Source of the DNA: Hadesarchaea archaeon
Lineage (GTDB): Archaea; Hadarchaeota; Hadarchaeia; Hadarchaeales; WYZ-LMO6
Reading direction: 5' to 3'
DNA length: 39,589 bases
Assembly (NCBI GenBank): GCA_029259185.1
Contig: JAPDJF010000054.1
Coordinates: 1 to 39,589, forward strand
Shown in pieces: positions 2-37,181 of the stretch (positions are counted from its first letter, which is position 1; the number at the start of each line of letters is the position of its first letter). A program made the translations under genes and the position numbers. The notes below the pieces were generated by a model, which saw nothing but the letters and a program-made list of their open reading frames with translations, did no database searches and was not told where the DNA came from.

Positions 2-979
2 GGAGAGCACATAGTCTCGGACCTCGCGTTCTCCTTCAAGCACGCCCGCGTGGTGCGGATGGGAAACAAGATGTGGTACCAGCGGATGCGGGGGACCAAC
101 GAGCCCGGAGGATTCCCGGATGGGTTCATATGTGATTTCATGCAGTGTGAGCGAGACCTACCCGCTAGGAGGTTCATAGAGGTCGTGCAAGAGGATGAGG
201 ATGAGGCCCTGAAGTACTCCCATGCGATGAGTGAGGGTATCGGAGGGATAGGGGCCGTGCTGGACAATGTCATATGGCTGGGATTCTACATGAGCGGGGG
301 AATAGGGTTCTCCAACACCGTGGCCTCGGCGGCTTATTCGGAGGTGCTTAACGAGATGTCGCTTGAGTTGATTGAGCTCTCCCACCGATACATGCAAGGG
401 GTGAGGAAGGTTCCCTTGAAATGGGAAACAATAAGGACAATGGTTAACACCTTAGTGCAGTATGCGATGGAGAGTTATGAGAAGTTCCCCACCCTCTCTG
501 AGTTCCATTGGGGAGGGGCCCACAGGGTCTCCGTTATCGGGTCGATCGCAGCATCGTCGGCAGCGATGCTTACTGGAAGCTCGACGATGGGGATGATGGC
601 AGGCAACTATGCGATAGCATTCGCGATGAAAGAGGGATGGTTGAGAACGGGCTGGGCTGGGCAGGAGATCCAGGACCACATAGGTCTCCCCTACCTCTGT
701 AGCTTCAGACCCGAGGAGGGAAACCTCACCGAGCTCAGAGGTCAAAACTACCCGATGCAGTCCTTCAGCGCGGCCCACGGCAACATGCGAGCAGCAGCTG
801 TCTATTCAGCAATGATAGGCAGGGGAAGTGCGTGGTGTCTCAGTCCGATAGTCAAGGTGGCATTCGCCGATCCTCACCTCGTCTTCGACTTCAAGCGCCC
901 GAGGTTGGCGATAGCCAAAGCGGCGATCAGACAGTTCATGCCCGCCGGGGAAAGAGATCCCGTGCTTCCACCACACTGA
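2..979 (+). CDS. mcrA: Methyl/alkyl-coenzyme M reductase subunit alpha (McrA/AcrA family), 5'-truncated by window edge
   Basis: Frame open from base 2: GEHIVSDLAFSFKHARVVRMGNKMWYQRMRGTNEPGG..., WLGFYMSGGIGF, GGAHRVSV, GQEIQDHIG, LRGQNYP, VKVAFADPHLVFDFKRPR, PAGERDPVLPPH. These match the order of C-terminal McrA motifs but are strongly divergent. Confidence 0.9.
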   Translation, partial: GEHIVSDLAFSFKHARVVRMGNKMWYQRMRGTNEPGGFPDGFICDFMQCERDLPARRFIEVVQEDEDEALKYSHAMSEGIGGIGAVLDNVIWLGFYMSGGIGFSNTVASAAYSEVLNEMSLELIELSHRYMQGVRKVPLKWETIRTMVNTLVQYAMESYEKFPTLSEFHWGGAHRVSVIGSIAASSAAMLTGSSTMGMMAGNYAIAFAMKEGWLRTGWAGQEIQDHIGLPYLCSFRPEEGNLTELRGQNYPMQSFSAAHGNMRAAAVYSAMIGRGSAWCLSPIVKVAFADPHLVFDFKRPRLAIAKAAIRQFMPAGERDPVLPPH

Positions 980-1646: not shown

Positions 1647-3110
1647 TCATTCGTTACCGTTTTTCCAGAACCCGTTGATCCTCTCCTTCAGCAACTTATA
1701 CTCAATGAGTTTTGAATAGGCTTTTCCCGCGTCCTCGGGTGAGAAGTATACCGGGATTTTGTTTCTTCGCAAGAGTTTGATCGACCTCGACTTGTCAAGG
1801 GGTTTCAGTGCTACTCCGAATACAGTTTTTCCCTTCTTACTGAATTCAATTATTTTTTTTACTAACGGTGTCTGTATCGTGTCTACGTAGTACTTCCGCA
1901 TCTCCTTGTCAAGGAATCTGACGGCATAAGCTCCTAATCCTCCAAGTATTATCACGCCTCCCACATCCCACTTTTCGAGAATACTCAAGATCTTGAACTC
2001 AATGGAGGGATCCAGTTCAGCCACCGTGTCTATAGGATTTCCCTTACTCCAGTAGGGGGGCATGAATGAGTTGAGTTCCTCCAGTATCCTAGGTGGAGGT
2101 GGAGAAATATCCACTAACCCCTCATCACAAGCATCAGTAGCTGCCACCCCCCATCCCCCACCCCGGGTCAAGATCACGAGTTTGTTGTTCTTCGGTATGG
2201 GTTGATCGAAGGCCATAGCTATTTTCAATAGGTCTTCTGTAGTTTCGGCTTCGATGATCCCGGCTTGTCTGAATGCCCCCCGATAGACTTGAATCGAGCC
2301 GGCTAGGGAGCCGGTGTGTGATCTAGCGGCCACACTTCCAGCTCTGGTTTTTCCCACCTTGAGCGCGATTATGGGTTTTTCCTTGGTGGTCTCCTTGGCT
2401 TCTCTCAAAAATTTTCTTCCATCTTTCACCCCCTCGATGTAAGTGAGGATCGTCTTGGTGGATTTCCTTCTGCGTAGGAACTCGATGAAATCCTCACATC
2501 GAAGGAAAGCTTCGTTACCACTGCTCACGAACACGTCGAATCCAAGCTGGTAGTACGTTCCCCTGTCGAGAAGTTGGGTTCCAAGGTTCCCACTTTGAGA
2601 AATGAATGACACGCTCCCTTTAAGCGGTTGAACCGAAGCCATAAGTGCCAACAAGTTTGAAGTTGCGCTGAAGACACCCATGCAGTTTGGTCCAACGAAA
2701 GGAAAGCGTCCTTCTTCAGCGATCTTTATGAGTTCGTCCTCAAGTCTTTTGCCTTCCTCCCCCGTCTCCCGAAATCCTGCCGATATGATCACACCCGCTT
2801 TTACTCCTCTCTCCACACATTCTTGAAGGATGGCCGGAACCGTGCGGGCAGGTGTGGCCACCACTGCGAGGTCCGTTTCTTCAGGGACTTTAGGGTAGAC
2901 TTTCAGTCCCATTATTTCCTTCTCCTTTGGGTTCACCGGATAAACCTCTCCCTCGAACTTTCCATCGATGATGTGTTTCAGAATTATAGTTCCCCATTTT
3001 AACGGAGAACCGGATGCCCCTATCACGGCCACAGAGTGTGGATCGAAAATGTACTTAAGACGATCAAAGACTTCTCGGGAGTTCTGTCGGTTTTCTTGCC
3101 CAGCGGTCAT
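1647..3110 (-). CDS. Acyl-CoA synthetase (NDP/ADP-forming), alpha-subunit type
   Basis: IFDPHSVAVIGASGSPLKWG CoA-binding domain; FVGPNCMG; FISQSGNLG; ARSHTGSLAGS with the conserved His. Confidence 0.92.
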   Translation of the reverse strand: MTAGQENRQNSREVFDRLKYIFDPHSVAVIGASGSPLKWGTIILKHIIDGKFEGEVYPVNPKEKEIMGLKVYPKVPEETDLAVVATPARTVPAILQECVERGVKAGVIISAGFRETGEEGKRLEDELIKIAEEGRFPFVGPNCMGVFSATSNLLALMASVQPLKGSVSFISQSGNLGTQLLDRGTYYQLGFDVFVSSGNEAFLRCEDFIEFLRRRKSTKTILTYIEGVKDGRKFLREAKETTKEKPIIALKVGKTRAGSVAARSHTGSLAGSIQVYRGAFRQAGIIEAETTEDLLKIAMAFDQPIPKNNKLVILTRGGGWGVAATDACDEGLVDISPPPPRILEELNSFMPPYWSKGNPIDTVAELDPSIEFKILSILEKWDVGGVIILGGLGAYAVRFLDKEMRKYYVDTIQTPLVKKIIEFSKKGKTVFGVALKPLDKSRSIKLLRRNKIPVYFSPEDAGKAYSKLIEYKLLKERINGFWKNGNE

Positions 3111-3344: not shown

Positions 3345-3815
3345 GTGCCTCTCGTAATAACCAAAGAGTGGTTTGAAACCATAAAAGAAAAATGGAATTC
3401 AGACTCCTCGAACGTTGAAAGTTTGAAGGATTCGCACGAGACGATCCTTTGGATCGTGGAGGAGTTACCTTTATCCAAAATCTCGGGTGAACTTGAGAAG
3501 TCTATATTGGGGAGCGGGATGGTGGATCCCGCGTATTTTCAGGCGATGAAGAAGGAAAACCGGGCGGATCTCATCATCAAAATCGAGGGTGGGAAAATAA
3601 CCGAATTCAGACCGGCAAAGCAAGGGGAGGAACACACGGGAATGATCAGGGGCAAATACTCTTCATTTGAGAAGGTGGTGAAGGGTGAGGATCTCATCTG
3701 GTTGATCATGGACGGAGAAATACATTTTAGGGGAAGGTTGCCAGAATTTGCGAAGAGACTTGACGGCTACACGAGACTCACAATCACCTTTGTATCCAAT
3801 ACCGAACTTCCGTGA
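3345..3815 (+). CDS. SCP2-like sterol carrier domain protein
   Basis: GTG start; ADLIIKIEGGKITEFRPAKQGEEHTGMIRGKYSSFEKVVKGE..IHFRGRLPEFAKRLDGYTRL. Confidence 0.5.
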   Translation: MPLVITKEWFETIKEKWNSDSSNVESLKDSHETILWIVEELPLSKISGELEKSILGSGMVDPAYFQAMKKENRADLIIKIEGGKITEFRPAKQGEEHTGMIRGKYSSFEKVVKGEDLIWLIMDGEIHFRGRLPEFAKRLDGYTRLTITFVSNTELP

Positions 3816-3824
3816 GGTGGGAAT

Positions 3825-5300
3825 ATGGCGGAGATGATGGAGGAGAGAAGTCAACAGCTGAAGGCTGAGTGGGAAGAGTGGTTTAGGGGAATGGGGTTCG
3901 ATAAGGTATGGAAACGGTTAGACGTGATCAATCCTTTCCCGGGTAGCATCCCAACTAACGCGGAAATATTCATGGTAATGCCCGTGTGGCGACACGTCTT
4001 CAGGGAACTCCACATGGATCCAGAAGTGTGGCGAAGGTTGAAATACGAGAATTTTGTTGAATGGTCTTACAGAGTGGATCAAGCAGTCGAGACCACGAAC
4101 CGTGTGGCTAAAAATCCCCCTTCTCCCGATGAGATGTATTGTATTGAGAACCTGTGTTATTTGAGCCATCCCCCTGCATATCTTTGTAAGCCGGATGTGG
4201 GAAAGAGCACATGTCAAATGCTTTACGGGAAATATGCGACCGTTGAGTACGTGCACGTGGATGATTTCTCCAGAGAGGTTTACTGGATAAATGGGTATCA
4301 TAACGAGGATGGATTCCCCGTGCACAGATGGACCGTAGGGGTTGCGAGTGATATCTCCCAATATTTCGATGAAGAAGACGAGAGAGCATTTCTCACAAGT
4401 ACTGAAAGCTGGACGGGAGCCTCAAACAGAGAGGAGCTAGACGATCGTTTAAACCGGAGACACCTCAGAACTGGAGTGAAGATAAGGGATGTGCCGAAGG
4501 TGTACTGGGATCCATATGACTGGGGGATGGGGGTTAGAGATGTAGTGAACGATATGCGGACAGAAGTTTTTTCTAAATGGCTCCACGCCACGTTGTACAT
4601 GTCATGTGTCTCAGCATACATCAGCACGATCGCGCAGAATGCCCTAATGAGCAGTGAGTTTTTCCTTTACGTGTACTACGGATTGAATACGAGCGCATTA
4701 GGTGTGAAGTATAATTTGTTCTCTTATGTACCGATTCCTCCGATCCTGAGAACTCTGCTCAACCTGCCTCAAGAGACTTTCGTTAAGCGGATGAGTGAGC
4801 TTTTCTTAGGTGGATACAACGCAATTCATAAGTATGCTTGTAATGAGAAGAAGGTTCCTCATCTCTTCAAGATCAGGAAATTCATCTTCGATCACGGTCA
4901 GTTCTATCCGCACGTCAAGGGAATAGTCCCACCTATGGCAATGGCGAGAGCTATCCCTCCCTCGATGGAGGTGATAAACCTGGACAGGTATTTGGAGACT
5001 CCTCCCAGCAAGGAGTTCTTGGAATTGTTAGAGGCCGATGGGGGTCTGAATCCCGAGACGGGCGAACTCCCACCCGTAGACGAAGTCGGACGATTCAGTT
5101 TTCTCATAGATCCATCTATCGAACCGATCAGGCCAAGCGACTTTCCACCATTAGACTGTAACCAGGGACAGATCTGGCCATTCGACATAACAAGAGAAAA
5201 AGTGGAGATAATGGTGGAAGAGGGTTATGACGGCTCTGGGAAAAACGTGGAACACTACAGCAAACTAGCGGATAAGAAGATGGGTAAGAAAGTGGATTGA
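3825..5300 (+). CDS. Uncharacterised 491-aa protein in the mcr/SCP2/AOR locus
   Basis: Long ORF, SD-like gaggtggg upstream, 9 nt after the SCP2-like ORF; no family recognised by eye; rich in Trp/Tyr/His. Confidence 0.85.
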   Translation: MAEMMEERSQQLKAEWEEWFRGMGFDKVWKRLDVINPFPGSIPTNAEIFMVMPVWRHVFRELHMDPEVWRRLKYENFVEWSYRVDQAVETTNRVAKNPPSPDEMYCIENLCYLSHPPAYLCKPDVGKSTCQMLYGKYATVEYVHVDDFSREVYWINGYHNEDGFPVHRWTVGVASDISQYFDEEDERAFLTSTESWTGASNREELDDRLNRRHLRTGVKIRDVPKVYWDPYDWGMGVRDVVNDMRTEVFSKWLHATLYMSCVSAYISTIAQNALMSSEFFLYVYYGLNTSALGVKYNLFSYVPIPPILRTLLNLPQETFVKRMSELFLGGYNAIHKYACNEKKVPHLFKIRKFIFDHGQFYPHVKGIVPPMAMARAIPPSMEVINLDRYLETPPSKEFLELLEADGGLNPETGELPPVDEVGRFSFLIDPSIEPIRPSDFPPLDCNQGQIWPFDITREKVEIMVEEGYDGSGKNVEHYSKLADKKMGKKVD

Positions 5301-5302
5301 AT

Positions 5303-5878
5303 TTATTTCCCCTGCTTAAACAGCTCTGCTACTTCCATCATCGCGGATGAAACTTTCATCCCAAGGGGAATACTTCCCCCTTCCATCTTTATAACCTGTT
5401 TGAAAAAAGCTTCAGTAGGATCTATTTCCCCGACTAGCACACCTATCAAGGATTTGGTGTATCCTTTGATGGTCATATCCGCATTCGCAAGTGGATATCC
5501 CCCCCCAGATAATTTTCCTTCAGATATCTTCAAGTGACCTTTCATGGGACTGTCTATTGCTTCGAAATTTACTGACACTTCTCCAGCTTTTTTTAGCGCT
5601 TCCTTGATATCAGGATTCTTCTCGACCATGACACTTATCCCCTCCCACAATAAATCCATGAACTTAGCAGAAGCTTCAGGGGCCTCTTTCACGAACTTGA
5701 TCACGTCCACATTTTTTAGCTTGTTGATGAGCTTTGGAACAAGATCGGGGACGAGTTCTATCAGCTGTGCTACACCGAATTCTTTTATGCCATTCAAAAG
5801 GGGAATCAGGTTTTCCTTCAGTTGATCCACAGGTAACTCTAGGGCTTCCTCAACAGCTTTCTTGAGATCTTCTCCCAC
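5303..5878 (-). CDS. SCP2 sterol-binding domain protein
   Basis: GHLKISEGKLSGGGYPLANADMTIKGYTKSLIGVLVGEIDPTEAFFKQVIKMEGGSIPLGMKVSSAMMEVA. Confidence 0.75.
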   Translation of the reverse strand: MGEDLKKAVEEALELPVDQLKENLIPLLNGIKEFGVAQLIELVPDLVPKLINKLKNVDVIKFVKEAPEASAKFMDLLWEGISVMVEKNPDIKEALKKAGEVSVNFEAIDSPMKGHLKISEGKLSGGGYPLANADMTIKGYTKSLIGVLVGEIDPTEAFFKQVIKMEGGSIPLGMKVSSAMMEVAELFKQGK

Positions 5879-6203: not shown

Positions 6204-8174
6204 GTGGACTATTTCGGATATTCGGGGCTCGTGCTCAAGGTTGATTTGGATAGAGGAAAAGTGGAAAGTGAAACACTCTCCAAGGAGCTGATCGAGAAAT
6301 TCATCGGGGGATGGGGAATCAACTTAAAACTTTTCAGAGATTGGAGCAAGCCGCTCGTGGATCCTCTCTCTCCAGAAAATCCCCTGATCCTGGGGGCAGG
6401 TCCACTGGTCGGAACGGCAGTCCCAGGAGCGGTCAAGCTTGTGGCTACAACGAAGTCACCAATAGCGGACAGGGCGGGGAAGCATTTCATCGACTGTGCG
6501 GTTGCGGGTGGAAAATTTGGCCCAATGCTAAAGAAAGCGGGCTACGATCATGTGATAATAACCGGCAGAGCGAGTGAACCCGTCTACCTGAGTATAGAAA
6601 ACAAAGGAGCTGAGATACTCGATGCTTCGGATCTATGGGGAAAAATGGATACGTACGAAACCACCGATTGGCTCCTCCGCAGACACCCGAATGCAGCCGT
6701 GATTTCAATAGGCAAAGCTGGGGAAAAGTTGGTGAGATACGGGATGGCCATCGTCGATCGCTTTGCCACGTTGGGGAGATTCGGGGTGGGGGCGGTGATG
6801 GGATCGAAAAATCTCAAGGCCATAGCCGTCAGGGGAGATGGAGGGGTTCGGATAGCAGAACCGGACGAATTCCTGCGGTGGGTTAGAGAGTGGAGAAAAG
6901 ACATAGAGAAAAATCCGATCCTCTCTGAATGGCGCGTTCTCGGTATAACGGCAGGGTGGGCGGTTCACTCTCCCCTAGTTCGGGAGGGGGTTTGGGAGTA
7001 TTCCAGATGGGCGGAACTCTACGGGCCGGAACGTTGGGTCGAGTTCAAGTGTAAAAAGAGAAATTCAGCTTGCTATGGGTGTCCTATGAGTTGTAGGGTG
7101 GATTTCTGCATAAAGGATGGGAAATACAGGGGTCTTGCTTCCTTCACCGGCTCGTACATGCTTCCAGCTAGGGTTGGACAAAGACTAGAACTCGAAGATC
7201 CGCGAGAAGCCGTCAAGTTGCTTGATATCTGCAACAGGGCCGGGATGTGTTACTTCACCACAAGCCAGCTCGTGAACTGGGTCACGAGATTGTATGGGAG
7301 GGGCAAAATTTCGAAGAAGACAACAGGTGGGGAGGTTCTGGAGAGAAAATTCGATGTCTACCTGAGACTCTTCGAACAAGTAGCATCAAGAAGTGGATTC
7401 GGGAAAATCCTAGCGGATGGGTGGTATCCATTGGCCAGACGGATAGGTGCCGATCCAGATGAATTCGAAGAGGGGACAGGAGTCTTCAGGGGTTGTGATG
7501 TCATTCAAGATGCGAGATTCACCAGACTTCATCCCCAAGCGTTTTCTCATTTCACGAGCCCGAGACCTCATCACGGGGGAACCCAATCGGTTTACACTAT
7601 CCCGAACTTGCCACTCGAGGTTCTCAGGGAGGTGGACGCGAAGGACATGGGCTTATCGGAAGAGGAGCTTCACCGGATATTCGGCGATCACAGGTTCGGA
7701 AGGTTTAACGTGGGGAGGTACGCCAGACATGCTGAGGATCGGATGGCGGTTTACAACAGTTTGGGGGTGTGTATTGTCCATGCGCTTTGGGGTTTCTTGG
7801 GAATAAAATACCTGAACCTGAGGTGGATAGCGAAAATTTATTCATCAGCTACCGGGATTCAAACGAGTGTAGACAAACTCAAGAAGGGTGGAGAGAGAGC
7901 ATTCACTTTTTGGAAGCTTTTGAACGCCGAGGAAGGATTCTCCAAAGAAGACTACAGATGTTCGGAGGTTTGGCTTAATCCGAGGAAAACTCCGGAAGGT
8001 GAATGTGGGCTGATGGATTACTATGGTGAGATACGCATCTCAAGAGCGGAGGTGGAGAAATTGTTGGAAGAATACTATGAGGAAAGGGGATGGGATAAGA
8101 AGACAGGGCTCCCCACTCTTGAGAAACTCAAGGAGCTCGGGTTGGAGGAGAATTTCAGGGTTCGATCAACTTAA
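6204..8174 (+). CDS. aor: Aldehyde ferredoxin oxidoreductase family (tungsten-pterin) protein
   Basis: GYSGLVLKVDLDRGKVESETL; FIGGWGIN; ENPLILGAGPLVGT; RFGVGAVMGSKNLKAIAVRG; ACYGCPMSC 4Fe-4S ligands. GTG start. Confidence 0.95.
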   Translation: MDYFGYSGLVLKVDLDRGKVESETLSKELIEKFIGGWGINLKLFRDWSKPLVDPLSPENPLILGAGPLVGTAVPGAVKLVATTKSPIADRAGKHFIDCAVAGGKFGPMLKKAGYDHVIITGRASEPVYLSIENKGAEILDASDLWGKMDTYETTDWLLRRHPNAAVISIGKAGEKLVRYGMAIVDRFATLGRFGVGAVMGSKNLKAIAVRGDGGVRIAEPDEFLRWVREWRKDIEKNPILSEWRVLGITAGWAVHSPLVREGVWEYSRWAELYGPERWVEFKCKKRNSACYGCPMSCRVDFCIKDGKYRGLASFTGSYMLPARVGQRLELEDPREAVKLLDICNRAGMCYFTTSQLVNWVTRLYGRGKISKKTTGGEVLERKFDVYLRLFEQVASRSGFGKILADGWYPLARRIGADPDEFEEGTGVFRGCDVIQDARFTRLHPQAFSHFTSPRPHHGGTQSVYTIPNLPLEVLREVDAKDMGLSEEELHRIFGDHRFGRFNVGRYARHAEDRMAVYNSLGVCIVHALWGFLGIKYLNLRWIAKIYSSATGIQTSVDKLKKGGERAFTFWKLLNAEEGFSKEDYRCSEVWLNPRKTPEGECGLMDYYGEIRISRAEVEKLLEEYYEERGWDKKTGLPTLEKLKELGLEENFRVRST

Positions 8175-8601
8175 ACACGCTATCTGGGACTGTTGAGTTA
8201 CTCATTCCCCCTGCTATCAACGATATGAGTTCGAAGTCCAGTTTATCAACACCTTTGGTGATTTTCAGCTTTTCTTCCGCTAGAGCGTTAGAGAGTTCTT
8301 CTCGTCCAGAGAGAATATCCTTCCACGTGGACCACTCTCCTTCTAACACAACATCCGCTTCGAAAGGGCTTGTACTCACTTCGGATTCCACGCGTTGATC
8401 CACCAAACGGATGTGCATGTAAACATCGCTCATACCTTTTTCCTTAAATGGATCGGGAACCCTTATCACGGGGGAAAGGGAGAAATCTTTTCCCTTCGTT
8501 TTTTCTTTGAAATCCGGCTGGGCTTCGATGTTGCTCATCAAGACGTTTAGAAAACTCCTTATACCGGCGATGAACAATTCTGATTCGATACTTCCGGTCA
8601 T
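8155..8601 (-). CDS. SCP2-like protein
   Basis: ADVVLEGEWSTWKDILSGREELSNALAEEKLKITKGVDKLDFELISLIAGGMS. Confidence 0.55.
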   Translation of the reverse strand: MTGSIESELFIAGIRSFLNVLMSNIEAQPDFKEKTKGKDFSLSPVIRVPDPFKEKGMSDVYMHIRLVDQRVESEVSTSPFEADVVLEGEWSTWKDILSGREELSNALAEEKLKITKGVDKLDFELISLIAGGMSNSTVPDSVFKLIEP

Positions 8602-17954: not shown

Positions 17955-17969
17955 AGTTAAGGTTTATAT
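17955..17969. repeat. Left target-site duplication of the casposon (AGTTAAGGTTTATAT)
   Basis: Identical 15-mer at 27526-27540, immediately outside both TIRs. Confidence 0.93.
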
Positions 17970-18173
17970 TTTTTACATTATTTGCATTTTCGACCCCAAC
18001 TTTATGCCATCTGAAGGTAGATAACATACGTTTTAGCCAATCAGAGCACTTATTGAGCGGCGAACAACGAAATACGGATTAAACAGTCCTTTTTCAATTT
18101 TTACGTTACCTATTCTTCCTCCTTTCGGCTTCGACCAAAACCCCGAAAATCGAATTAGGGTCAGGATTTGGGT
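17970..18173 (+). repeat. Left terminal inverted repeat, 204 bp
   Basis: TTTTTACATTATTTGCATTTTCGACCCC...GGTCAGGATTTGGGT; reverse complement found at 27322-27525 with no mismatch seen by eye. Confidence 0.97.
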
Positions 18174-18202
18174 TCAGAGTAGCTTATTGGGGTTATGAAG
18201 TT

Positions 18203-18553
18203 ATGAAGCAACATTTATTAAAGTCAAAAATCACATGCAATGGGGTGTCAGGAATTCAAGTCCCAATCCCTCCCGAATACGCCTGGTTGATTCCAATCGT
18301 CGTGCCTTTTATAATCGGTCTGCTCGTGGGGACAATAATCAAAAAAGTCATAAAGTTGGCTTTGGCTGTAGTAGCTTTAATAATCGTTTTAGTCGCCACC
18401 GGATCCATGACCATGACTTTTGAAGACCTGTGGGGTAAAGCGATGGAATTCCTGCCTAAGTTGTACGAATCGGGTGAGGGATACTTAGACGTTTTGCCGT
18501 ACACATCCGCAACGTTTTTGATCGGCCTTGCGCTGGCGCTTTGGAAAGCTTAA
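18203..18553 (+). CDS. Small membrane protein of casposon
   Basis: Two or three hydrophobic segments (WLIPIVVPFIIGLLVGTII, KLALAVVALIIVLVATG). Confidence 0.6.
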   Translation: MKQHLLKSKITCNGVSGIQVPIPPEYAWLIPIVVPFIIGLLVGTIIKKVIKLALAVVALIIVLVATGSMTMTFEDLWGKAMEFLPKLYESGEGYLDVLPYTSATFLIGLALALWKA

Positions 18554-18577
18554 AAATAAGAAATGTGAGGAATAAAT

Positions 18578-18838
18578 TTGCCTATTGATATGAAAGATGT
18601 TGAAAAAACTGTGATGAGTTGGATAAGATCTAGGTATAAAAATGTTAGAGCTATACGGATTACCAAGATATGGAGAGAGCAGGACTTTTGGAGCGTCGAT
18701 GTAGAATTCGAGATTCCGACCGAAACCACATTTGGCTTTGACCCGCTTTTGCCTGCAAGTCTCAGGTCGCGGGGGATAAAACGTATGCGTAGGTTTCAAG
18801 TGGATAGATCAAGCGGGGAGGTTATAGGGGTTAAATAG
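18578..18838 (+). CDS. Hypothetical 86-aa protein of casposon
   Basis: ORF in + strand cluster; no family recognised. Confidence 0.5.
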   Translation: MPIDMKDVEKTVMSWIRSRYKNVRAIRITKIWREQDFWSVDVEFEIPTETTFGFDPLLPASLRSRGIKRMRRFQVDRSSGEVIGVK

Positions 18839-18922
18839 AAATTGTCGGAAATTCAGATTCAATCCTCTCGAAACTATTGCCATAAAAATAATAAGGTTAA
18901 GATTAACATAAATGGTGATTTC

Positions 18923-19516
18923 ATGAAAATAATCGGAGTTTTTAAAGAATTGGATGAAAATGAAAAATTAATTTTCGAAAGTAAAGTAGTAACTCCAACG
19001 ATCTTCGTCAAGGAAGCCGAAGTTAAAAAATTAATCGGAAGAGAAAGACGGGAAATCCCTATTTCTTTCTCTGCTACCAATCTTTACTTAACAAACAAAC
19101 GGCTTTCTTTTCTTATTTTGTACCAGCTTGAAGCGAGGACAATTTCAGAGAGTGGGGCTCCAAAATTAAGTGGAGTTGCTGGCACATGGTTTGAAATTCC
19201 AGTAAGCGCAATATCTTCAGCTGACATAAGACCCGTATTTCTAAAATCATTTGAAAAAGAAGTTGACATGAAAAGGCTTGTCGAGTGGGGGGTAATAAAA
19301 AAAGAAATGGCGGAGAGAGCATCAGCCGTCGAACTGATTTATAGCGAAGAGGATGCTGTTGGTAGAATTAAAGATTATATGCAATCTTTGTTAAAAATGG
19401 GTTTCTGGGGTAAAATTTTTAAAAAAATTGAAAGAGTATCAGATAAATTAATGATAGTAGGCGAAGAAGCAACAACAATAGTTCCCTCAATAAAAGGCTT
19501 GATAAAGAAACAGTAA
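18923..19516 (+). CDS. Hypothetical protein, possibly PH/GRAM-like
   Basis: Likely ATG 18923 (MKIIGVFKELDENEKLIFESK...ATNLYLTNKRLSFLILY). Confidence 0.5.
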   Translation: MKIIGVFKELDENEKLIFESKVVTPTIFVKEAEVKKLIGRERREIPISFSATNLYLTNKRLSFLILYQLEARTISESGAPKLSGVAGTWFEIPVSAISSADIRPVFLKSFEKEVDMKRLVEWGVIKKEMAERASAVELIYSEEDAVGRIKDYMQSLLKMGFWGKIFKKIERVSDKLMIVGEEATTIVPSIKGLIKKQ

Positions 19517-19656
19517 TCTCTAAAAAATCTTAATGAGCTTTTGTTCCCAAGCACTTAAAAACGGTTCGAAATATGTTGAGGTGGTAGTTTTTCTGGCAAT
19601 TTTAATCTAGAGATTTGCTGGCCTATATCAGTAGGGGGGCGTTGGAGAAGTTAGAT

Positions 19657-20079
19657 TCATAGAACTTCATCTTCAAAAGGAATCCCAAACTCTTGTTTTA
19701 GGAAATTCTTCAGATAATATTTCAGACCTCCATCCTTTTTCAGCAGTTCAATAAGCTTGTCTTCCTCCTCGTGTTTTGAGGTCTCAACCTTCTGCTTCTC
19801 CAACTCCTCTTGTAGGATCTTTCGAATGAGGGGTTCGATGTCTGACCTCGCTTTATCCCTTGGTCGGGCTTTGTATCTCCCTTCGTCATGATCGCTTATC
19901 CGATGCTTTTCGACTTCCCACGCTGCTTGACAACACCTAAAGTAATGTTTTCCCCTCGTTTGGTGCAATTTGCCACATAAGGGACACTTAACTATCTTTT
20001 TCATGTCTTTTTCACCATTTTTGGCACGGATAAACTGGTCTTTTCCATACCCTTTGGGTAAAAAATACCTCTTTTTCAT
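19657..20079 (-). CDS. Small zinc-finger protein of casposon
   Basis: KCPLCGKLHQTRGKHYFRCC. Confidence 0.6.
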   Translation of the reverse strand: MKKRYFLPKGYGKDQFIRAKNGEKDMKKIVKCPLCGKLHQTRGKHYFRCCQAAWEVEKHRISDHDEGRYKARPRDKARSDIEPLIRKILQEELEKQKVETSKHEEEDKLIELLKKDGGLKYYLKNFLKQEFGIPFEDEVL

Positions 20080-20195
20080 GTCTTTTTGATGGTTTTTGCA
20101 GCGATATGCCTACATTATCCTCAATATGTCGTGATTTTCTTACATTTGACGCAATTTTCCGAGATTTGACAAGATTTGATGTCATTAGTACACCT

Positions 20196-22157
20196 CTAAA
20201 ATTCTGTGGCATAAGCGCATTCATGGCACTCCGGAGCAACGCAAAGCTCCTTCCGCTTCAAAGCTTCGCTTGCTGTCAAACCGCAAGGCTTGATCTCATT
20301 TTCCCAGTTTATCCAAAGCCTTCTCGGCCTGGTCTCCATAACTCTGGCCCTTTTCTTTTGCCTGATCGCTTCTCTGACTTTGGTCATGTGCTTAGCTATG
20401 TATTCGTTTGACTTGTCCCTGTAAAGCCTGAGCAGTTCTATGACGTTTCCCCAGAAACCGTGCAAGGCGTATTTCGGGAAGAACTTCCACGTGTCTTTGG
20501 GATGAGTCTTCAAATGCTCTTCAATTCGGTCAAGATTTTTTCTTGACCACGCCCTTAGATCCCCTCCAAATTCTCCCATCACTTCCTTTTGAATCTCCTC
20601 CGAAAACATGACGTAGAGCTTGGGTCTAATCAAGAGGAGCAAGCCACGATGCTCGCGCTTCAGTTCGCCAAGACCCGAACCAGTCGGTATGTCGTTTCTC
20701 CTCGTCTTGAACGAATCTGTAGCACAGTCTACCGCTTCGTATCGGTGCAAATCTTCATGAAGCTTGGCCCTGCACATCGAGGTTATCCAAGATCCAACAT
20801 GGGGGAGGTAGATGCCACCGGCGCGGTAAAGGATCCTGTTTCTAACACACCGCTTTAGTCTCTCATCCCAGATAAGCTCAGGCTCCTCTTCGTAATCCGT
20901 TTGCCTGATCGCTTGGTATGTTTTGCCGTAGAGGGAGTTCAACAAGAGTTTATACATTTGATAGCGTGGATCATCTTCAGGTGTTTCTTGCTTTAGACGG
21001 TAAAATTCTTCCACGTAGTCTTTGAACGGATTTTCTGCACGGTTGGAAGGAACCCAGACATACCCTTTGACCTTTGCTAAGTCTATTTCGTCATGCTTCA
21101 GGGCTTCCCTTAGTTCATAAGAGACAACTGGCGCACGCCTTACGTGTTCATCGTTGGCAAACTCGAAGTTATTGGCGTTCTTCAGGATTATCGGATACTT
21201 GCACTTATTCACATAACCATCAACCAAATAGAACCCTTCAAACTCATCAACGAAATCATTAACCTTCAGCCATTTGCCCTCGGTCAAAGGTGGCAAATTC
21301 GCCATTGCCCAAGGGTAAAAGGAGTTATAATCGTAATAGTTCACGTCTGGGATTACCGCTATTCCATCAACAAAGGTGCTCGCCCTCCCGCCATGTATCG
21401 ATTGTTCGGCAAGCCGCCTAACCCAAGAGGGAACTTGCGGGATCTTGGTTTTTAGAAAGTGCTTCTTGAAAACTTTGGAAGCGAACTGAGAAGCCGAGAC
21501 CGATATTGCTGTATCATAACGCTTGTGCATGTCCAAGATGTATTGGGCTAAATCATATGTGGCTAAAATTTCGACTCTGCAATAACGGTAGAGGTCTTGC
21601 CATTCACTTCGTGTTTTAGGTTTCTTACCTTCTCTGACGAATTCGGGCCTTATCCCCTTTTGATGATTCAGGTTTAACTTTCTGGATATTTCGTAAAGTG
21701 AACCTCGAACAAAAGAGCCCGTATCGATAACTTTGATGTAAGCTCCATTTCTCAATCCTATTCTAGCGAACCAGACCTTTTGAGAATAGATTTTTTCAAA
21801 CGTGCCAAGTGGGTGTTCAAGTTTTGGTGGGTTCAAATATCGAAATAATTCATCTTCCTTTTCGCACAGAACAGCCGTTAGGTCAAACTGCAGGTTGTGG
21901 GCAAATAATAAATTTGTTCGGTGGTTGGCGCATCTCTGGCTCAGATATCTCATGAATTCGTCTAAAACAGTTCTTTGAGTTACCCTGATGTAAGCCGGTC
22001 TGATCCCATCGTGAAACGTTAAGAGATAAGGAATGCCGTCCTCAGTTTCCGTGTCAAATACCATGAGGTTGACGTTTCTCGGAAAAGAATTTCTTAGCGG
22101 TTTTACTCCACCAGCAAGATACCTGGGCAATTCAACCGATTTATCCATGTCTACCAC
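20196..22157 (-). CDS. polB: Family B DNA polymerase, probably protein-primed (casposon PolB)
   Basis: Exo I FDTETEDG, Exo II AHNLQFDL, motif A YYDYNSFYPWAM, motif B KLLLNSLYGKTYQ, motif C CATDSF. Confidence 0.93.
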   Translation of the reverse strand: MVDMDKSVELPRYLAGGVKPLRNSFPRNVNLMVFDTETEDGIPYLLTFHDGIRPAYIRVTQRTVLDEFMRYLSQRCANHRTNLLFAHNLQFDLTAVLCEKEDELFRYLNPPKLEHPLGTFEKIYSQKVWFARIGLRNGAYIKVIDTGSFVRGSLYEISRKLNLNHQKGIRPEFVREGKKPKTRSEWQDLYRYCRVEILATYDLAQYILDMHKRYDTAISVSASQFASKVFKKHFLKTKIPQVPSWVRRLAEQSIHGGRASTFVDGIAVIPDVNYYDYNSFYPWAMANLPPLTEGKWLKVNDFVDEFEGFYLVDGYVNKCKYPIILKNANNFEFANDEHVRRAPVVSYELREALKHDEIDLAKVKGYVWVPSNRAENPFKDYVEEFYRLKQETPEDDPRYQMYKLLLNSLYGKTYQAIRQTDYEEEPELIWDERLKRCVRNRILYRAGGIYLPHVGSWITSMCRAKLHEDLHRYEAVDCATDSFKTRRNDIPTGSGLGELKREHRGLLLLIRPKLYVMFSEEIQKEVMGEFGGDLRAWSRKNLDRIEEHLKTHPKDTWKFFPKYALHGFWGNVIELLRLYRDKSNEYIAKHMTKVREAIRQKKRARVMETRPRRLWINWENEIKPCGLTASEALKRKELCVAPECHECAYATEF

Positions 22158-22929
22158 CTTTCGCCTTGATGACCTTTGGCTTGCGTTCAGGCGAGAGGAA
22201 AGTCAGGGCGATTATCCGCTCGATTACGAAAGGTGCTCTCCGGTATTGCTCAGCCAAAATATCGGGCATGTTCTCCTTCGCCCAAGCGTAGATCTCATCG
22301 AAGTCAACGGGCTTGTCTGAATACCTGATTTGAGTTGTGTTGATGAAATAGACATCCGATTGTTCAACGATGAAGTAAGCTCCAACGGTTGTGAACTTTC
22401 CTCTCGGGTTTCTCTTTCTATCGGAACAAACAAGTGTTCTGGGATTGATGAACTTAAAACGTGGATATGCGATGTTTCCGAAGCGATAGATTCTGTTAAG
22501 CTTATCGATGTATTTTTGTGTTGGAATCCATTCTCTTTCCGGCTTTGGGAATCTCGGCCTCTCAACAGACGGCTTCCTCCCTCTCTTCCTCAGCCCCTTC
22601 AAGCCGTACTCCCTGATTTTCCGCTTGATGGTGGACTCAGAAACTCGGTAATAGCGGGCTATGGCTTCGGTCTTTTTGTCCTGCTTAAGAAATCGCTTAA
22701 GTTCCTGTTTCGTGATCCGCTTCGGCTTTCTGACCCTGATTTTCGGCTTGGGTTTCCCCCTGAGTTTAGCTTTGAGCCTCCGAACCTCTGATTTAAGTGT
22801 CCGAATCTCGGCCTCAAGCTCGGCAACGCTTTTATGCTTTACTCGCAATTTTTTCTTATGGGGATTGCCGACTAGGGAAGGTTGTCTTCGCTTCCTAGCC
22901 ATTGGGGGAGATGGGATGGCTTTCTTCAT
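22141..22929 (-). CDS. HTH-containing protein of casposon
   Basis: KQELKRFLKQDKKTEAIARYYRVSESTIKRKIREYGLKGLRKRGRKP HTH after a basic coiled N-terminus. Confidence 0.7.
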   Translation of the reverse strand: MKKAIPSPPMARKRRQPSLVGNPHKKKLRVKHKSVAELEAEIRTLKSEVRRLKAKLRGKPKPKIRVRKPKRITKQELKRFLKQDKKTEAIARYYRVSESTIKRKIREYGLKGLRKRGRKPSVERPRFPKPEREWIPTQKYIDKLNRIYRFGNIAYPRFKFINPRTLVCSDRKRNPRGKFTTVGAYFIVEQSDVYFINTTQIRYSDKPVDFDEIYAWAKENMPDILAEQYRRAPFVIERIIALTFLSPERKPKVIKAKGGRHG

Positions 22930-23210
22930 CGGATATCCCCTTTTTTGACTTGTTCTCTGATCAAGGAGAGATCCGAGAGAAATGCATACAGCGCAGTTCT
23001 GACTACTTCAGCCTGAGAACATTGCAATCTTTGAGACGCTTCTTCTACTGCACGTTTTAATCCACTTGGAACTACTAGGTCAAGCACAGGTTTTGGAGAC
23101 TTCCACGATTTTTTTGTATTCATGATCATCAAAAACAAGTTCACGTAAGTCTTATATAGACCTTTAAGGTAATTACTCGATGGGTATGATATATACCCGA
23201 CGCAAAACAT
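22926..23210 (-). CDS. Ribbon-helix-helix-like regulator
   Basis: VLDLVVPSGLKRAVEEASQRLQCSQAEVVRTALYAFLSDL. Confidence 0.65.
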   Translation of the reverse strand: MFCVGYISYPSSNYLKGLYKTYVNLFLMIMNTKKSWKSPKPVLDLVVPSGLKRAVEEASQRLQCSQAEVVRTALYAFLSDLSLIREQVKKGDIR

Positions 23211-23220
23211 TGGTGATATA

Positions 23221-24138
23221 GTGCCTAAGAAAATCGAGAACCCACTGCGGGAAGGCCTGCCCTCTAAGATTTATTTGTTATCCTACTGTGAACCTCTTAC
23301 CGCCTATGAGATAGCTAAAAGAATTTATGGAGTAAAGCCCCCCCATATTCCGCCTACTTCTAAAGTTTCGACTTGGGTAAAGAAAATGAAGGAAAATGGG
23401 ACCCTTTCCGAGAATGAGGAAAAGAAAACTTATGCCCGAGTTGACCCTCTAATAGTTGAAATTGAAAGCACCCTGAAAGAACACGATGTTGAGCTATCCG
23501 ATTTTGAAAAACATATGATCTCTCGTCTCTTGGATTCCCAAGAATTCAGATGGCTTGTTAAGAAATTGATGCCCCCAATGAGTTATGATATCGACTCGGC
23601 TTGGATTATCATGAACCATCTTGCACTTGTGGCTTCTGTGCGGGTTCTTAGAGAAAAGATGCCAGAAGTTCCACAGCTGGAAACACCAAGGGGCTTTATC
23701 CAAAAACATGCAGGAAAATTAGAGGAAACCAGAGAATTTAGGAGTCTGGAAAAGATTGGGCGCTTTCCATCAAAAGAGTCAGAGTTTGATGAAAGACTGA
23801 AAATTCTCAGAAGGTTTTGGGAAACGAAGGAATTCAGGGAACTTACATCTGAAATAACCGAATTGCTTAAAGAAGCGGAAGTTTTTGGGGATCTCTCGGA
23901 CGAAGAAGTTTTAGAATTTTTCAAACTTGACCTGTTGCTAAGATCGATTCCAATTTCAACTTTGGAGAAACTCACCAATTTGGGTTTTTTAAACAGATTG
24001 ATATCAATACCCGCGCTAGCAGGGTTTGACTTCTTCCCCTTTCATCGGTTGGAGAGAGTATTAGAAAGAGAAGTAAATCGAATGAAGACACGTGAAAGGA
24101 AGAAGCTTTTGAAAAATTCCGGAGTGGAAAAAATCTAG
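23221..24138 (+). CDS. Winged-HTH-like protein upstream of casposase
   Basis: N-terminal LLSYCEPLTAYEIAKRIYGVKP..PPTSKVSTWVKKMKENGTLSE; GTG start. Confidence 0.65.
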   Translation: MPKKIENPLREGLPSKIYLLSYCEPLTAYEIAKRIYGVKPPHIPPTSKVSTWVKKMKENGTLSENEEKKTYARVDPLIVEIESTLKEHDVELSDFEKHMISRLLDSQEFRWLVKKLMPPMSYDIDSAWIIMNHLALVASVRVLREKMPEVPQLETPRGFIQKHAGKLEETREFRSLEKIGRFPSKESEFDERLKILRRFWETKEFRELTSEITELLKEAEVFGDLSDEEVLEFFKLDLLLRSIPISTLEKLTNLGFLNRLISIPALAGFDFFPFHRLERVLEREVNRMKTRERKKLLKNSGVEKI

Positions 24139-24144
24139 AACGAG

Positions 24145-25139
24145 GTGAGAACACGCAGATAATCCTTAACGAGTTCGGCCAGTATCTCGGAAGCGACAAG
24201 GAGAACTTCATCGTTTACAAAGACAACAATCCGATAAAACGCATCCCATTTTACAAGGTGAAACAAATCATCTTGACACCGGGCAACACGGTTTCGACTT
24301 CGGCTTTGTTCTGGTGCTCGATTTACGGGATCAACCTAATGATGACCTCAAATACAGGAAGACCTCTAAGCATGATGTTGCCTTTAACTTCGAGCGCGCA
24401 TGTCAAGACAAGGATAAAGCAGTATGAAGCCTATTACAACTCAAAAGGTGTTGAAATTGCGAAGGCGCTTCTGACCACCAAAGTCAACAACCAAATCGCA
24501 CTGCTTGAAAAATACGGGTTTGATGGCCACAAGCTTGATTATCTCGTGGAAAAGCTTCAAAGAATCGATGGAGAAAAGGTCGATGACGTAAGGCCAAGAC
24601 TGATGGGGATAGAATCGAGGTGTTCAAAAGTCTATTTCAGAAATCTCAAGACCCTGTTTCCAGATTTCTTGCAAACATCAAAGCGAATGAAATACAAAGC
24701 CGAAGACCCCCTGAACAATTTGCTAAATCTTGGCTATGAAGTCCTGAAGGGAGAAGTTTACAGGGGCGTGATGTATGCCCACCTAGATCCATACTTAGGT
24801 TATCTGCATTCAATCCAGTTTGCTAAGCCATCTCTGGTTTGCGATATTCAAGAGGTCTTCAGAGGTCTGATTGACGAGTTTCTAATCAGATACGCTCAGA
24901 AGTTAAGTGAGAACGATTTCGAAAACAAAAACGGAAGGATGTTCTTGAAGCAGAAGGAGAGCTATAAGCTGATAGAAGCTGTCAACAGGCTTTTCGACAA
25001 GCGGATCAAGCACCAGAGGATAAAGAAATACGGAGAGCACTCGAAGATAAGAACGGCAATAAGGGAGGAGCCGATAAAACTAGGTCAGTACTTGAGGGAC
25101 GAAAAGAAAAAGTATGAACCAGTTGTGATGCCAAGATAA
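24145..25139 (+). CDS. cas1: Cas1 endonuclease/integrase (casposase); 5' end disrupted or with a non-canonical start
   Basis: IILNEFGQYLGSDKENFIVYKDNNPIKRIPFYKVKQIILTPGNTVSTSALFWCSIYGINL; GIESRCSKVYF (Glu), LDPYLGYLH (His), PSLVCDIQEVFR (Asp). The computed GTG at 24258 truncates the N-terminal domain; the frame is open upstream without ATG/GTG/TTG. Confidence 0.92.
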
Positions 25140-25149
25140 TGGTGAAGCC

Positions 25150-25512
25150 ATGAAAAAGCCAACGGTCATCTCCACGTTTACTAAAAAAGGACAAACAGAT
25201 ATAGTAGAAATCATTAGAGGGATATTCGTTATTATTGTTCTTGCTTGGGCTGGGTGGATAATAGCTGGAGTATTTGAATTACAAGAAATCGTTGGGGCGA
25301 TCCTCGTTAGTGCTGGCATTTTAGCCGTTGCGAGCATTGTTGCATATTTAGTTTACATTGTTTTGGGATCTTTAGGCATTGCAGCTGTTGTTTTTCTTTC
25401 CCTAGCTGGGTTGCTCGCAGCAATAGTCTTTGGGGTACCAGCTCTTGTTAATATTGGTATTGGTGTTGGCATCACAGTTATCATAATTCTTTGTGTTTAC
25501 TTCACTTATTAA
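25150..25512 (+). CDS. Small membrane protein of casposon
   Basis: Highly hydrophobic IVEIIRGIFVIIVLAWAGWIIAGVF... Confidence 0.55.
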   Translation: MKKPTVISTFTKKGQTDIVEIIRGIFVIIVLAWAGWIIAGVFELQEIVGAILVSAGILAVASIVAYLVYIVLGSLGIAAVVFLSLAGLLAAIVFGVPALVNIGIGVGITVIIILCVYFTY

Positions 25513-25524
25513 CTGCGGAAATGG

Positions 25525-25978
25525 ATGTTTGAAGCAAGACAACACAAGAAAGGTCTAGTGAAATTTGTTGATAGAAAGGGAAACGAAAGATGGGGGAAGC
25601 CAGAAGAAATAAAAAATGGAAGCAGGAAGATTTTGAACAAGCACAACTCGAAAAGGGATTAGTGAAATATAAAGGGAATTGGGTAACTCTTAAGAAAAGG
25701 AAAATCTGAAGAAAGGTTATGTTAAATATGTAGAAAAACAAAAAGGCGCCTCCAGACCCGATATTGTAATTGACAATATAGGAATAGAAATCAAGGGCCC
25801 CACACGCAGAACAGATCAACTGGACTCGATAGTTAGTAAGTGTATGAGGTACTCCCAACACTTTGAAAAAATAATTTTGGTTTTATTTGATGTAGCCGTT
25901 AGCGAACACTACTACGAGGAGTGGTTAGAAGGATTAAGAAGAAAATATCCCGAAGTAAAAGTGATACGAAAGGATTAA
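25525..25978 (+). pseudogene. Frameshifted PD-(D/E)XK-like nuclease with N-terminal 'KGLVKxxxxxW' repeats
   Basis: Three frames: MFEARQHKKGLVKFVDRKGNERWGKPEEIK / WKQEDFEQAQLEKGLVKYKGNWVTLKKRK / LKKGYVKYVEKQKGASRPDIVIDNIGIEIKGPTRRTDQLDSIVSKCMRYSQHFEKIILVLF. Confidence 0.6.
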
Positions 25979-26180
25979 AATAACGAAACAGAAACTTGGG
26001 TGATGATGATAAAAATGGTAAAAAAGAAGAGGATATATGTGGACCCCTCACAGGAGAGGTTATTACAGAGTCAAGACGGAAGGTGAGGAAAGATGAATAT
26101 GTTGATATCTGGTCAGGCAGGGTCAAGAGGAGAAAGAAATACTCTCTGTTTTGACTCTTATGACCTGATTAAACAGTTTT

Positions 26181-26744
26181 GTGATCAAAATGTTCGGACT
26201 CACAAGTTTATTCGATGAAGTTCTTCGACTTGTAAACGCATGGAAACCGCAAAAAAGATACAGATCTGAAGATGGTTATAGAGACGAACTAAAAGAATTC
26301 CTTAGGACAAACTTGAATAGATCCAACGCACTCAGCATTGGACCACAAAAGCCGATTAAAGTTGCTTCAGAGTCGGGTAGGCATCTTTGTGATATAGCCG
26401 TTGACGAATCAGTTGGTGTTGAGCTGAAGAAAGATCTCAATAAATTGGCAGAAGTTGATAGGTTGTCTGGACAGTTAAGCAGGTATAAGAAACAATATTC
26501 TGGGATAATTGTTGTATTGGTGGGCAGCACAAATAAAGACGCTTACGCTGAATTGGTGAACCGAGTTTATGAAATGCAGCAAAGCACAGGTATTTCTCTT
26601 GGGTTTACTGCGGGAACAAAAATCAGGGTTGTGGATAAGGGATTTACAGGGGCTGGAGCAGAGAAAACTAGAGTAAAAAACGCACAACCCAAAAGACCGT
26701 ATTGGGTGAACCCTCTTACAGGTAAAAAAGAGCCTTTATTCTAA
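26181..26744 (+). CDS. Putative PD-(D/E)XK nuclease-like cargo protein
   Basis: GRHLCDIAVDESVGVELKKDLNKLAEVDRLSGQLSRYKKQYSGIIVVLVG (D-x(n)-ExK). Confidence 0.6.
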   Translation: MIKMFGLTSLFDEVLRLVNAWKPQKRYRSEDGYRDELKEFLRTNLNRSNALSIGPQKPIKVASESGRHLCDIAVDESVGVELKKDLNKLAEVDRLSGQLSRYKKQYSGIIVVLVGSTNKDAYAELVNRVYEMQQSTGISLGFTAGTKIRVVDKGFTGAGAEKTRVKNAQPKRPYWVNPLTGKKEPLF

Positions 26745-26942
26745 AATTGAATTCAACACCTATGCTGAGCCGCCCGCTTTCGCCGACCTCCATCTTTTTA
26801 CGGGGTTTAACGAAGGCTACGAAAACGGGTACACGGATGGCCACAGGCTGGGCTGACACAGAGAGCTAGACATGTTGAACACTGTTTTTTACTTATTTAT
26901 TAGTAAATGAGTAAATGATTTGGATAATTAAGAGGTTCGAAG

Positions 26943-27257
26943 ATGGAACTACATGCACATGGGATAGTGGTATTGACAGCTTTGTGTGTAGCTTTTTTGG
27001 CTTGGTTTGGAGGCGAATTTTTTGCGGGATCCATGATACTCGATGAGGTCGCTGATGAATACTATGAGCGGGGGTATTATGAAGATGCAATAGAGGCGAG
27101 AGATCAGGCAAGGGAAGCCCATGACTATTTCGTCTATTGCATGGCAGGGGTCGTGTTGGTTATCATCGGTGGTGCCGTCTGGGCGTGGAAGTGGGAACAC
27201 GGGCAAATAACCCAGCCCGGGGCGTTCTGGAAGACCGTCGGTGATTTGCGAAAGTGA
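26943..27257 (+). CDS. Small membrane protein of casposon
   Basis: Two TM segments around an acidic YYERGYYEDAIEARDQAREAHD linker. Confidence 0.5.
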   Translation: MELHAHGIVVLTALCVAFLAWFGGEFFAGSMILDEVADEYYERGYYEDAIEARDQAREAHDYFVYCMAGVVLVIIGGAVWAWKWEHGQITQPGAFWKTVGDLRK

Positions 27258-27321
27258 GATGGCCACAAAATGACCAAGCCCGTTCTCCAAACCCTAAAAG
27301 CGTTGGCGGAAAATCTGCATG

Positions 27322-27525
27322 ACCCAAATCCTGACCCTAATTCGATTTTCGGGGTTTTGGTCGAAGCCGAAAGGAGGAAGAATAGGTAACGTAAAAATTG
27401 AAAAAGGACTGTTTAATCCGTATTTCGTTGTTCGCCGCTCAATAAGTGCTCTGATTGGCTAAAACGTATGTTATCTACCTTCAGATGGCATAAAGTTGGG
27501 GTCGAAAATGCAAATAATGTAAAAA
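27322..27525 (-). repeat. Right terminal inverted repeat, 204 bp
   Basis: Perfect reverse complement of 17970-18173. Confidence 0.97.
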
Positions 27526-27540
27526 AGTTAAGGTTTATAT
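27526..27540. repeat. Right target-site duplication of the casposon, overlapping a TATA-like element
   Basis: AGTTAAGGTTTATAT, identical to 17955-17969; GTTTATAT lies about 30-35 bp upstream of the PRC-barrel ATG. Confidence 0.93.
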
Positions 27541-37170: not shown

Positions 37171-37181
37171 AGGTGGGGGGC

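Follow-up and report, generated by a model that had tools for sequence, protein, structure and literature searches.

The window analysed here is a contig of 39,589 nucleotides (C13) from a Hadesarchaea archaeon, and it opens inside a gene for a protein of the McrA family. The locus raises the question of which enzyme this broken gene encodes, which substrate the enzyme acts on, and what the genes next to it contribute. The annotated features are as follows.

2-979, + strand: C-terminal 325 aa of an alkyl-CoM reductase alpha subunit, assigned to acrA2; 5' end lost at the contig start
988-1572, + strand: SCP2-like protein of 194 aa adjoining acrA; only its paralogue gives a weak SCP2 match
1647-3110, - strand: ADP-forming acyl-CoA synthetase alpha subunit-like protein (CoA_binding and Succ_CoA_lig)
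3345-3815, + strand: 156-aa protein directly before orfX, no Pfam family
3825-5300, + strand: orfX paralogue of 491 aa, unnamed family; conserved His159, Glu161, Arg211, Arg212, His213, Asp243, Arg245 and Glu247
5303-5878, - strand: SCP2-domain protein of 191 aa, with a homologue near acrA in BA2
6204-8174, + strand: aldehyde:ferredoxin oxidoreductase (AOR) family protein, of a subfamily adjoining orfX in Methanoliparum and Alkanophaga
8155-8601, - strand: SCP2-like protein of 148 aa (SCP2 E-value 0.0027, below the Pfam cut-off), conserved in genome G026
20196-22157: viral/organellar-type family B DNA polymerase (PF03175) in a casposon-like element
24258-25139: solo Cas1 (PF01867) in the same element

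The casposon-like element is complete and spans 17956-27540. It has terminal inverted repeats of 210 nt that are 99% identical (17964-18173 and 27322-27531), and the 14-bp direct repeat GTTAAGGTTTATAT stands at both outer ends (17956-17969 and 27527-27540). The open-licence main texts searched do not mention casposons together with Hadesarchaea. Toward the other end of the window, a repeat-rich protein without a Pfam match (37173-39587), with units like AEWQVVETWTGTITSP, runs off the contig, and contig C7 (L112 1759-4692) encodes a relative that shares its GGGTDKWFYDSD segment.

The alpha subunit at the contig start

The reading frame at 2-979 is open from the first base of the contig, runs for 325 codons with no internal stops, and terminates in TGA. 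It matches the NCBIfam profile met_CoM_red_alp over positions 242-547 of 548 (E-value 3.5e-66; 224 bits vs an equivalog cut-off of 768), Pfam MCR_alpha (E-value 1.3e-22) and solved MCR alpha chains (best E-value 3.6e-59), and this McrA-family match is far above chance. The sequence-only reading had quoted GGIGFSNTVASAAY around the active-site Tyr, where the canonical motif is GGVGFTQYATAAY, and GWAGQEIQDHIG in the thioglycine region, where it is GFYGYDLQDQCG; in both cases the letters are exactly so. Residues were numbered on an M. marburgensis reference sequence judged by its known landmark residues, all of which stand at their expected places. In this numbering the active-site Tyr is indeed lost, alpha-Tyr333 being Thr, and the other substitutions are Phe443Trp, Tyr444Ala, Gln400His and Cys452Ile, together with Met480-Asn481-Val482 to Phe-Ser-Ala, so that the residues of canonical McrA are replaced at all of these positions. 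The fold family and the F430 and coenzyme framework residues are shared with canonical McrA, and Lys256, His257, Arg271, Phe330, Asp450, His484 and Gly445, at the thioglycine position, are retained. The thioglycine region, described as divergent, is thus changed in the neighbours but not in the glycine itself.

Tyr333 is absent from every Acr sequence in the residue table, so its loss marks the group and does not make the window protein exceptional. Phe443Trp, Tyr444Ala, Met480Phe, Asn481Ser, Val482Ala and Gln400His are pocket changes of the clade that unites Methanoliparia, BA2 and Hadarchaeota, and the fragment has the full pocket set of this clade (Tyr333Thr, Phe443Trp, Tyr444Ala, Met480Phe/Tyr and Asn481Ser/Thr, with Gly445 retained). 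The motifs GGIGFSNTV and GWAGQEIQDH are common to the window, the other Hadarchaeal copies, BA2, Methanolliviera and Methanoliparum. A one-residue deletion in the loop at 239-246 has been linked to mid- and long-chain Acr (PMC9118554). It is seen in the full-length WYZ-LMO6 and G026 orthologues, as the axial nickel ligand Gln147 is in full-length orthologues; in the window genome both positions fall in an unassembled stretch.

In a maximum-likelihood tree of 39 proteins that includes the window fragment, the latter groups with the AcrA2 of WYZ-LMO6 and with G026 (100/98), and the AcrA1 copies are their sister. All Hadarchaeal AcrA copies group with BA2 and Methanoliparia (100/100), the Helarchaeota come next (95/94), and all Acr separate from Mcr (100/100). 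With the WYZ-LMO6 AcrA2 orthologue as the query (first in the alignment), identity is 77% to BA2, 63% to Methanolliviera and Methanoliparum, 56% to a Helarchaeon, 50% to an Archaeoglobaceae MAG, and about 40-44% to methanogens, Syntrophoarchaeum and Alkanophaga. The description of the protein as highly divergent therefore applies relative to methanogens only, and not against BA2, Methanoliparum or Methanolliviera. A diverged methane-forming or methane-oxidising Mcr would fit the identity of about 37-38% to methanogenic McrA and the retained framework residues, but the tree places the protein outside Mcr and no methanogen residue is left at 333, 443-444 or 480-482: Tyr333, Tyr/Phe444, Met/Leu480 and Asn481 are all missing, and the chance of such an Mcr is close to nil. 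A family-wide search of the window genome (1.27 Mb, 54 contigs, 95% complete) found no canonical Mcr. The earlier suggestion of an alkyl-CoM reductase for a non-methane substrate is borne out by this phylogeny, the very check proposed for it, and the suggestion of a further paralogue proves right as well, the window copy being one of two acrA paralogues.

We have high confidence that the window protein is an alkyl-CoM reductase alpha subunit of the long-chain type, and the relatives suggest the chain length of the substrate. A cultured Hadarchaeon with an AcrA of the same clade forms hexadecyl-CoM from hexadecane (PMC10811742), and Methanoliparia use C14-C22 alkanes (PMC9118554). An Acr of the Syntrophoarchaeum or Ethanoperedens kind, acting on short-chain alkanes from ethane to butane, is unlikely here. 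Like Syntrophoarchaeum and Alkanophaga, the window protein has lost Tyr333 and carries the G-Q change that follows Gly445, and short-chain alkanes are proposed for the Hadesarchaeal duplicates in passages of Hua et al. (PMC6783470). However, Syntrophoarchaeum and Alkanophaga split from the window clade with 100/100 support, the nearest relatives with data use alkanes of C14 and longer, and the SCP2-like carriers and acyl-CoA synthetases linked to acr here are not found in the Syntrophoarchaeum and Alkanophaga acr loci searched. Phe330, replaced in Acr of that type, is retained in the window.

Two acrA copies and a single acrB-acrG pair

The window genome contains four McrA pieces: C13 and C38 each start with a C-terminal half, and C10 and C38 each end with an N-terminal half. 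Its one acrB and one acrG are both on C38 (5,903 bp), which reads acrA C-half, SCP2-like gene, acrB, acrG, orfX (526 aa), acrA N-half. The beta-Tyr367 motif (FYTHSIYGG) is intact in AcrB, as is the gamma-Arg120 motif (SGR) in AcrG. In both acrA genes the assembly is interrupted over the same stretch of about 120 residues; at the break the ends of C10 and C38 are identical to each other, as are the starts of C38 and C13. Judging from contig ends and synteny, and not from reads, the simplest layout would be C10-C38-C13, giving acrA1-scp-acrB-acrG-orfX-acrA2-scp, with the N-terminal half of acrA2 most likely at the 3' end of C38. This same order is found on a single contig of WYZ-LMO6 (QNVD01000218.1, 9,258 bp, genome G025), where the acyl-CoA synthetase gene of the window is also next in line. 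WYZ-LMO6 belongs to the same family as the window genome and to another genus, and its AcrA2 is 88% identical over the window stretch. The similarities of the N-halves fit the proposed layout: the one on C38 is like the N-half of WYZ-LMO6 acrA2, and the one on C10 is like the N-terminus of the G026 acrA. Across Hadarchaeota, acrA is present in 4 of 28 genomes, all from one family, WYZ-LMO6 among them. A relic lacking mcrBG, the outcome that would have counted against the sequence-only reading, is rejected: acrB and acrG lie on C38 beside the paralogue and are linked to acrA2 in WYZ-LMO6.

Could the two copies, or the 5.9-kb segment of C38, be an assembly artefact or an excised circle and not a tandem? 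Both acrA genes of the window genome are broken at the same repeat. In G026 (four contigs), an acrA on C1 (L023 9059-10879) joins an N-half of A1 type to a C-half of A2 type, and acrBG-orfX stands alone on a 5.6-kb contig (L024), an arrangement that is either a repeat collapse in assembly or a real excision by recombination between acrA copies. Nevertheless, all of the genes follow one another on the single WYZ-LMO6 contig, and passages of Hua et al. (PMC6783470) describe other Hadesarchaeota MAGs in which one operon holds a second mcrA, which makes an artefact or a circle quite improbable. A circular C38 is not needed given the WYZ-LMO6 contig, although this is no formal exclusion. We put at roughly 85% the probability that the fragment belongs to the C-terminal part of AcrA2, and that this subunit and a second alpha subunit share one acrB/acrG in a Hadarchaeal operon that activates long-chain alkanes anaerobically. 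Upstream of acrA1 on C10, some 630 bp following an anaerobic ribonucleotide reductase-like gene (L012 8879-9509) hold short overlapping frames only, and may contain the remnant of a mobile element.

The window and C38 copies were compared by codon alignment, and the figures are descriptive, as like and unlike blocks were chosen after seeing the profile. Long blocks are 100% identical in DNA, and other blocks are 55-76% identical; the like blocks cover C-half residues 1-60, 211-248 and 271-326. Within the window genome, 65/67 fourfold-degenerate sites (97%) agree in the like blocks and 16/48 in the unlike blocks, vs 23/55 (42%) in the like blocks between the window genome and the WYZ-LMO6 orthologue. 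The corresponding within-genome agreement in like blocks is 48/48 in WYZ-LMO6 and 43/52 in G026, where the contrast is weaker. Orthologues of different genomes have no such mosaic pattern. Because near-identical blocks alternate with paralogue-specific ones, acrA1 and acrA2 are mosaics produced by concerted evolution through gene conversion in each of the three genomes. Conversion spares the same segments: an insertion before 317, and residues at about 333-391, 407-435 and 484-495 (M. marburgensis numbering). The open-licence main texts searched contain no earlier description of this mosaic, and the main-text passages of PMC6783470 consulted mention neither the mosaic nor orfX.

The large blocks identical to acrA1 and the single acrBG set would also be expected if acrA2 were a decaying or non-catalytic second copy, its sequence maintained only through gene conversion with acrA1. 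Such decay is highly improbable, since the acrA2 frame is open without stops, A2 orthologues are found in at least two other genomes (WYZ-LMO6 and G026) as a clade of their own (100/98), 84% of residues vs 34% of fourfold sites are conserved in the unconverted segments, and none of the 16 active-site positions compared differs between acrA1 and acrA2. In our reading, selection would keep two alpha isoforms on one BG platform. As a guess, AcrA1 and AcrA2 may be interchangeable isoforms that differ in the chain lengths or shapes they suit; subunit packing could instead account for the paralogue-specific segments.

The orfX family and the genes around it

The protein encoded at 3825-5300 (491 aa) and the C38 frame between acrG and acrA2 (526 aa) belong to one family, orfX, and three more paralogues are found in the window genome, on C6 (L111 6311-7789), C7 (L112 7201-8787) and C36 (L113 5062-6633). 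None of 35 members has a match in Pfam or NCBIfam, and none has one in the PDB by sequence; weak Pfam and PDB matches (actin-like, UvrC, haemoglobin-like and others) were below any significance and were discarded. With 13 sequences, structure modelling gave a poor result (pLDDT 64), making a fold search from it meaningless. The model from the 35-sequence alignment, with a 386-aa Helarchaeal member placed first, is confident (pLDDT 92.8, pTM 0.91), and its comparison with PDB folds found no solved relative (best E-value 0.06, TM 0.15). In window numbering, Gly135, Glu151, His159, Glu161, Gly163, Arg211, Arg212, His213, Gly217, Asp243, Arg245, Glu247, Pro303 and Pro305 are near-invariant, and a metal or acid-base site could be built from the conserved His, Glu, Asp and Arg. 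The C7 and C36 copies differ except over their last 110 or so amino acids, which are almost identical, suggesting that gene conversion may act among orfX paralogues too.

The family follows acr closely. Of the 28 Hadarchaeota genomes, the 4 that have acrA are also the 4 that have orfX, each with about five or more orfX pieces. Both genes are restricted to BA2 among the 260 genomes of its class, and to one shared set of 4 among the 86 of the Helarchaeon's class, setting aside one match in an acr-free Asgard genome that was judged spurious (E-value 3.8e-4, 80 aa, three stops). Among 16 named genomes, orfX is present in 9/9 that bear acr and in 0/7 methanogens; the former include Methanoliparum, two Methanolliviera (contig-edge fragments), Archaeoglobaceae S009, CSMAG_2992, Alkanophaga and Syntrophoarchaeum. 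Overall, counting each genome once and including MAGs that are possibly incomplete or contaminated, orfX is in 16/16 acr-bearing vs 0/372 acr-free genomes (relatives and methanogens). Fisher's test gives p of about 1e-28, ignoring kinship, and the acr-bearing genomes form about seven independent lineages. The search was confined to the named genome sets and plasmids; tblastn against 72,556 plasmids gave no match. The pattern could come from joint transfer of linked genes, which would itself mean that they are functionally linked. The Helarchaeal acr-bearing genomes (L036; G029, G303-G305) have roughly 9 to 24 orfX matches each, a large expansion.

Gene order links the two as well. In Hadarchaeota, orfX stands between acrG and acrA2. 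It adjoins acrB in S009 and, save for one small intervening scp gene, acrA in BA2; in the Helarchaeon it is near acrA, in CSMAG_2992 near acrG or acrA, and in Syntrophoarchaeum it precedes an acrA by two genes. The pair of the 156-aa gene and orfX is also found in BA2, G026 and G027. The copies on C6 and C7 adjoin AMP-forming acyl-CoA synthetases, the C36 copy is near an ADP-forming synthetase beta subunit, and the synthetase gene at 1647-3110 stands beside acrA2-scp in WYZ-LMO6 and G026 too. The AOR at 6204-8174 is 56% identical to the orfX-adjacent AOR of Methanoliparum (L120) vs 26% to another AOR of that genome, and 44-51% identical to AOR near orfX in Alkanophaga. In Alkanophaga (L121) a YcaO gene adjoins orfX; the enzyme that thioamidates McrA is of the YcaO family.

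Across most of the long-chain clade, acrA has an SCP2-like protein encoded beside it: homologues of the 988-1572 protein hold this position in BA2, Methanolliviera, Helarchaeota, Archaeoglobaceae S009 and CSMAG_2992, and in Hadarchaeota they occur only in the 4 acr-bearing genomes, with 2 copies each. The open-licence main texts searched hold no earlier description of the orfX family and nothing on an SCP2-like or orfX-like gene linked to Acr, which is weak evidence of novelty.

A candidate pathway and its place among known systems

Alkyl-CoM formation by Acr is established in relatives, and gene content, order, homology and distribution are the basis of the following scheme. With the nickel cofactor F430, AcrABG would convert an alkane and the CoM-CoB heterodisulfide into alkyl-CoM and HS-CoB, by the reverse of methane-forming chemistry on a larger substrate, and Tyr333Thr, Tyr444Ala, Met480Phe and Asn481Ser fit a remodelled pocket typical of the clade. 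SCP2-like proteins may carry the long-chain substrate or product. OrfX would then take alkyl-CoM, or the intermediate after it, as its substrate. An aldehyde would be oxidised by the AOR-family enzyme, and the synthetases would make acyl-CoA, to be burned by beta-oxidation. Papers from 2023-2024 call the archaeal conversion of alkyl-CoM to acyl-CoA unknown (PMC10322722, PMC11543930, PMC10811742). From linkage and co-occurrence we tentatively propose, as something possible rather than probable, that OrfX is a new enzyme family acting directly after Acr in this conversion, together with a dedicated AOR subfamily. The same co-occurrence would be expected if OrfX served in cofactor maturation, in CoM/CoB handling or as an accessory to Acr.

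A second mcrA copy inside one mcr operon was published for Hadesarchaeota in 2019, in JZ-1 bin_103 and JZ-2 bin_199, of the same phylum as the window, as described in passages of Hua et al. (PMC6783470). The same source gives the earlier MAGs as having a single mcrA, whereas the WYZ-LMO6 contig considered here carries two. The AcrA of Ca. Bathyarchaeota BA2 has the same motifs as the window and linked scp and orfX, but one acrA was found in that genome, and acrB is about 8 kb downstream. The alkylotrophic methanogens Ca. Methanoliparum and Methanolliviera share the pocket motifs and orfX, which in Methanoliparum adjoins the same AOR subfamily as in the window; they also encode canonical Mcr (PMC9118554), and none was found in the window genome. 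Ca. Cerberiarchaeum oleivorans, a hexadecane-degrading Hadarchaeon compared here by description only, has a Hadarchaeal Acr of the same long-chain clade as Bathyarchaeia, Helarchaeales and Methanoliparia, with a single acr operon reported (PMC10811742).

The enzyme type is thus already known, and the locus adds another Hadarchaeal lineage to the anaerobic oxidisers of long-chain alkanes: a heat-loving Hadarchaeon that probably attacks them without oxygen through an AcrA-containing enzyme. orfX and one AOR subfamily are concrete candidates for the step from alkyl-CoM to acyl-CoA. With two alpha subunits that have the same active-site residues, one BG pair and few private segments, the operon is a natural experiment on chain-length preference, and the acrA1/acrA2 pair makes the sequence basis of this preference testable.
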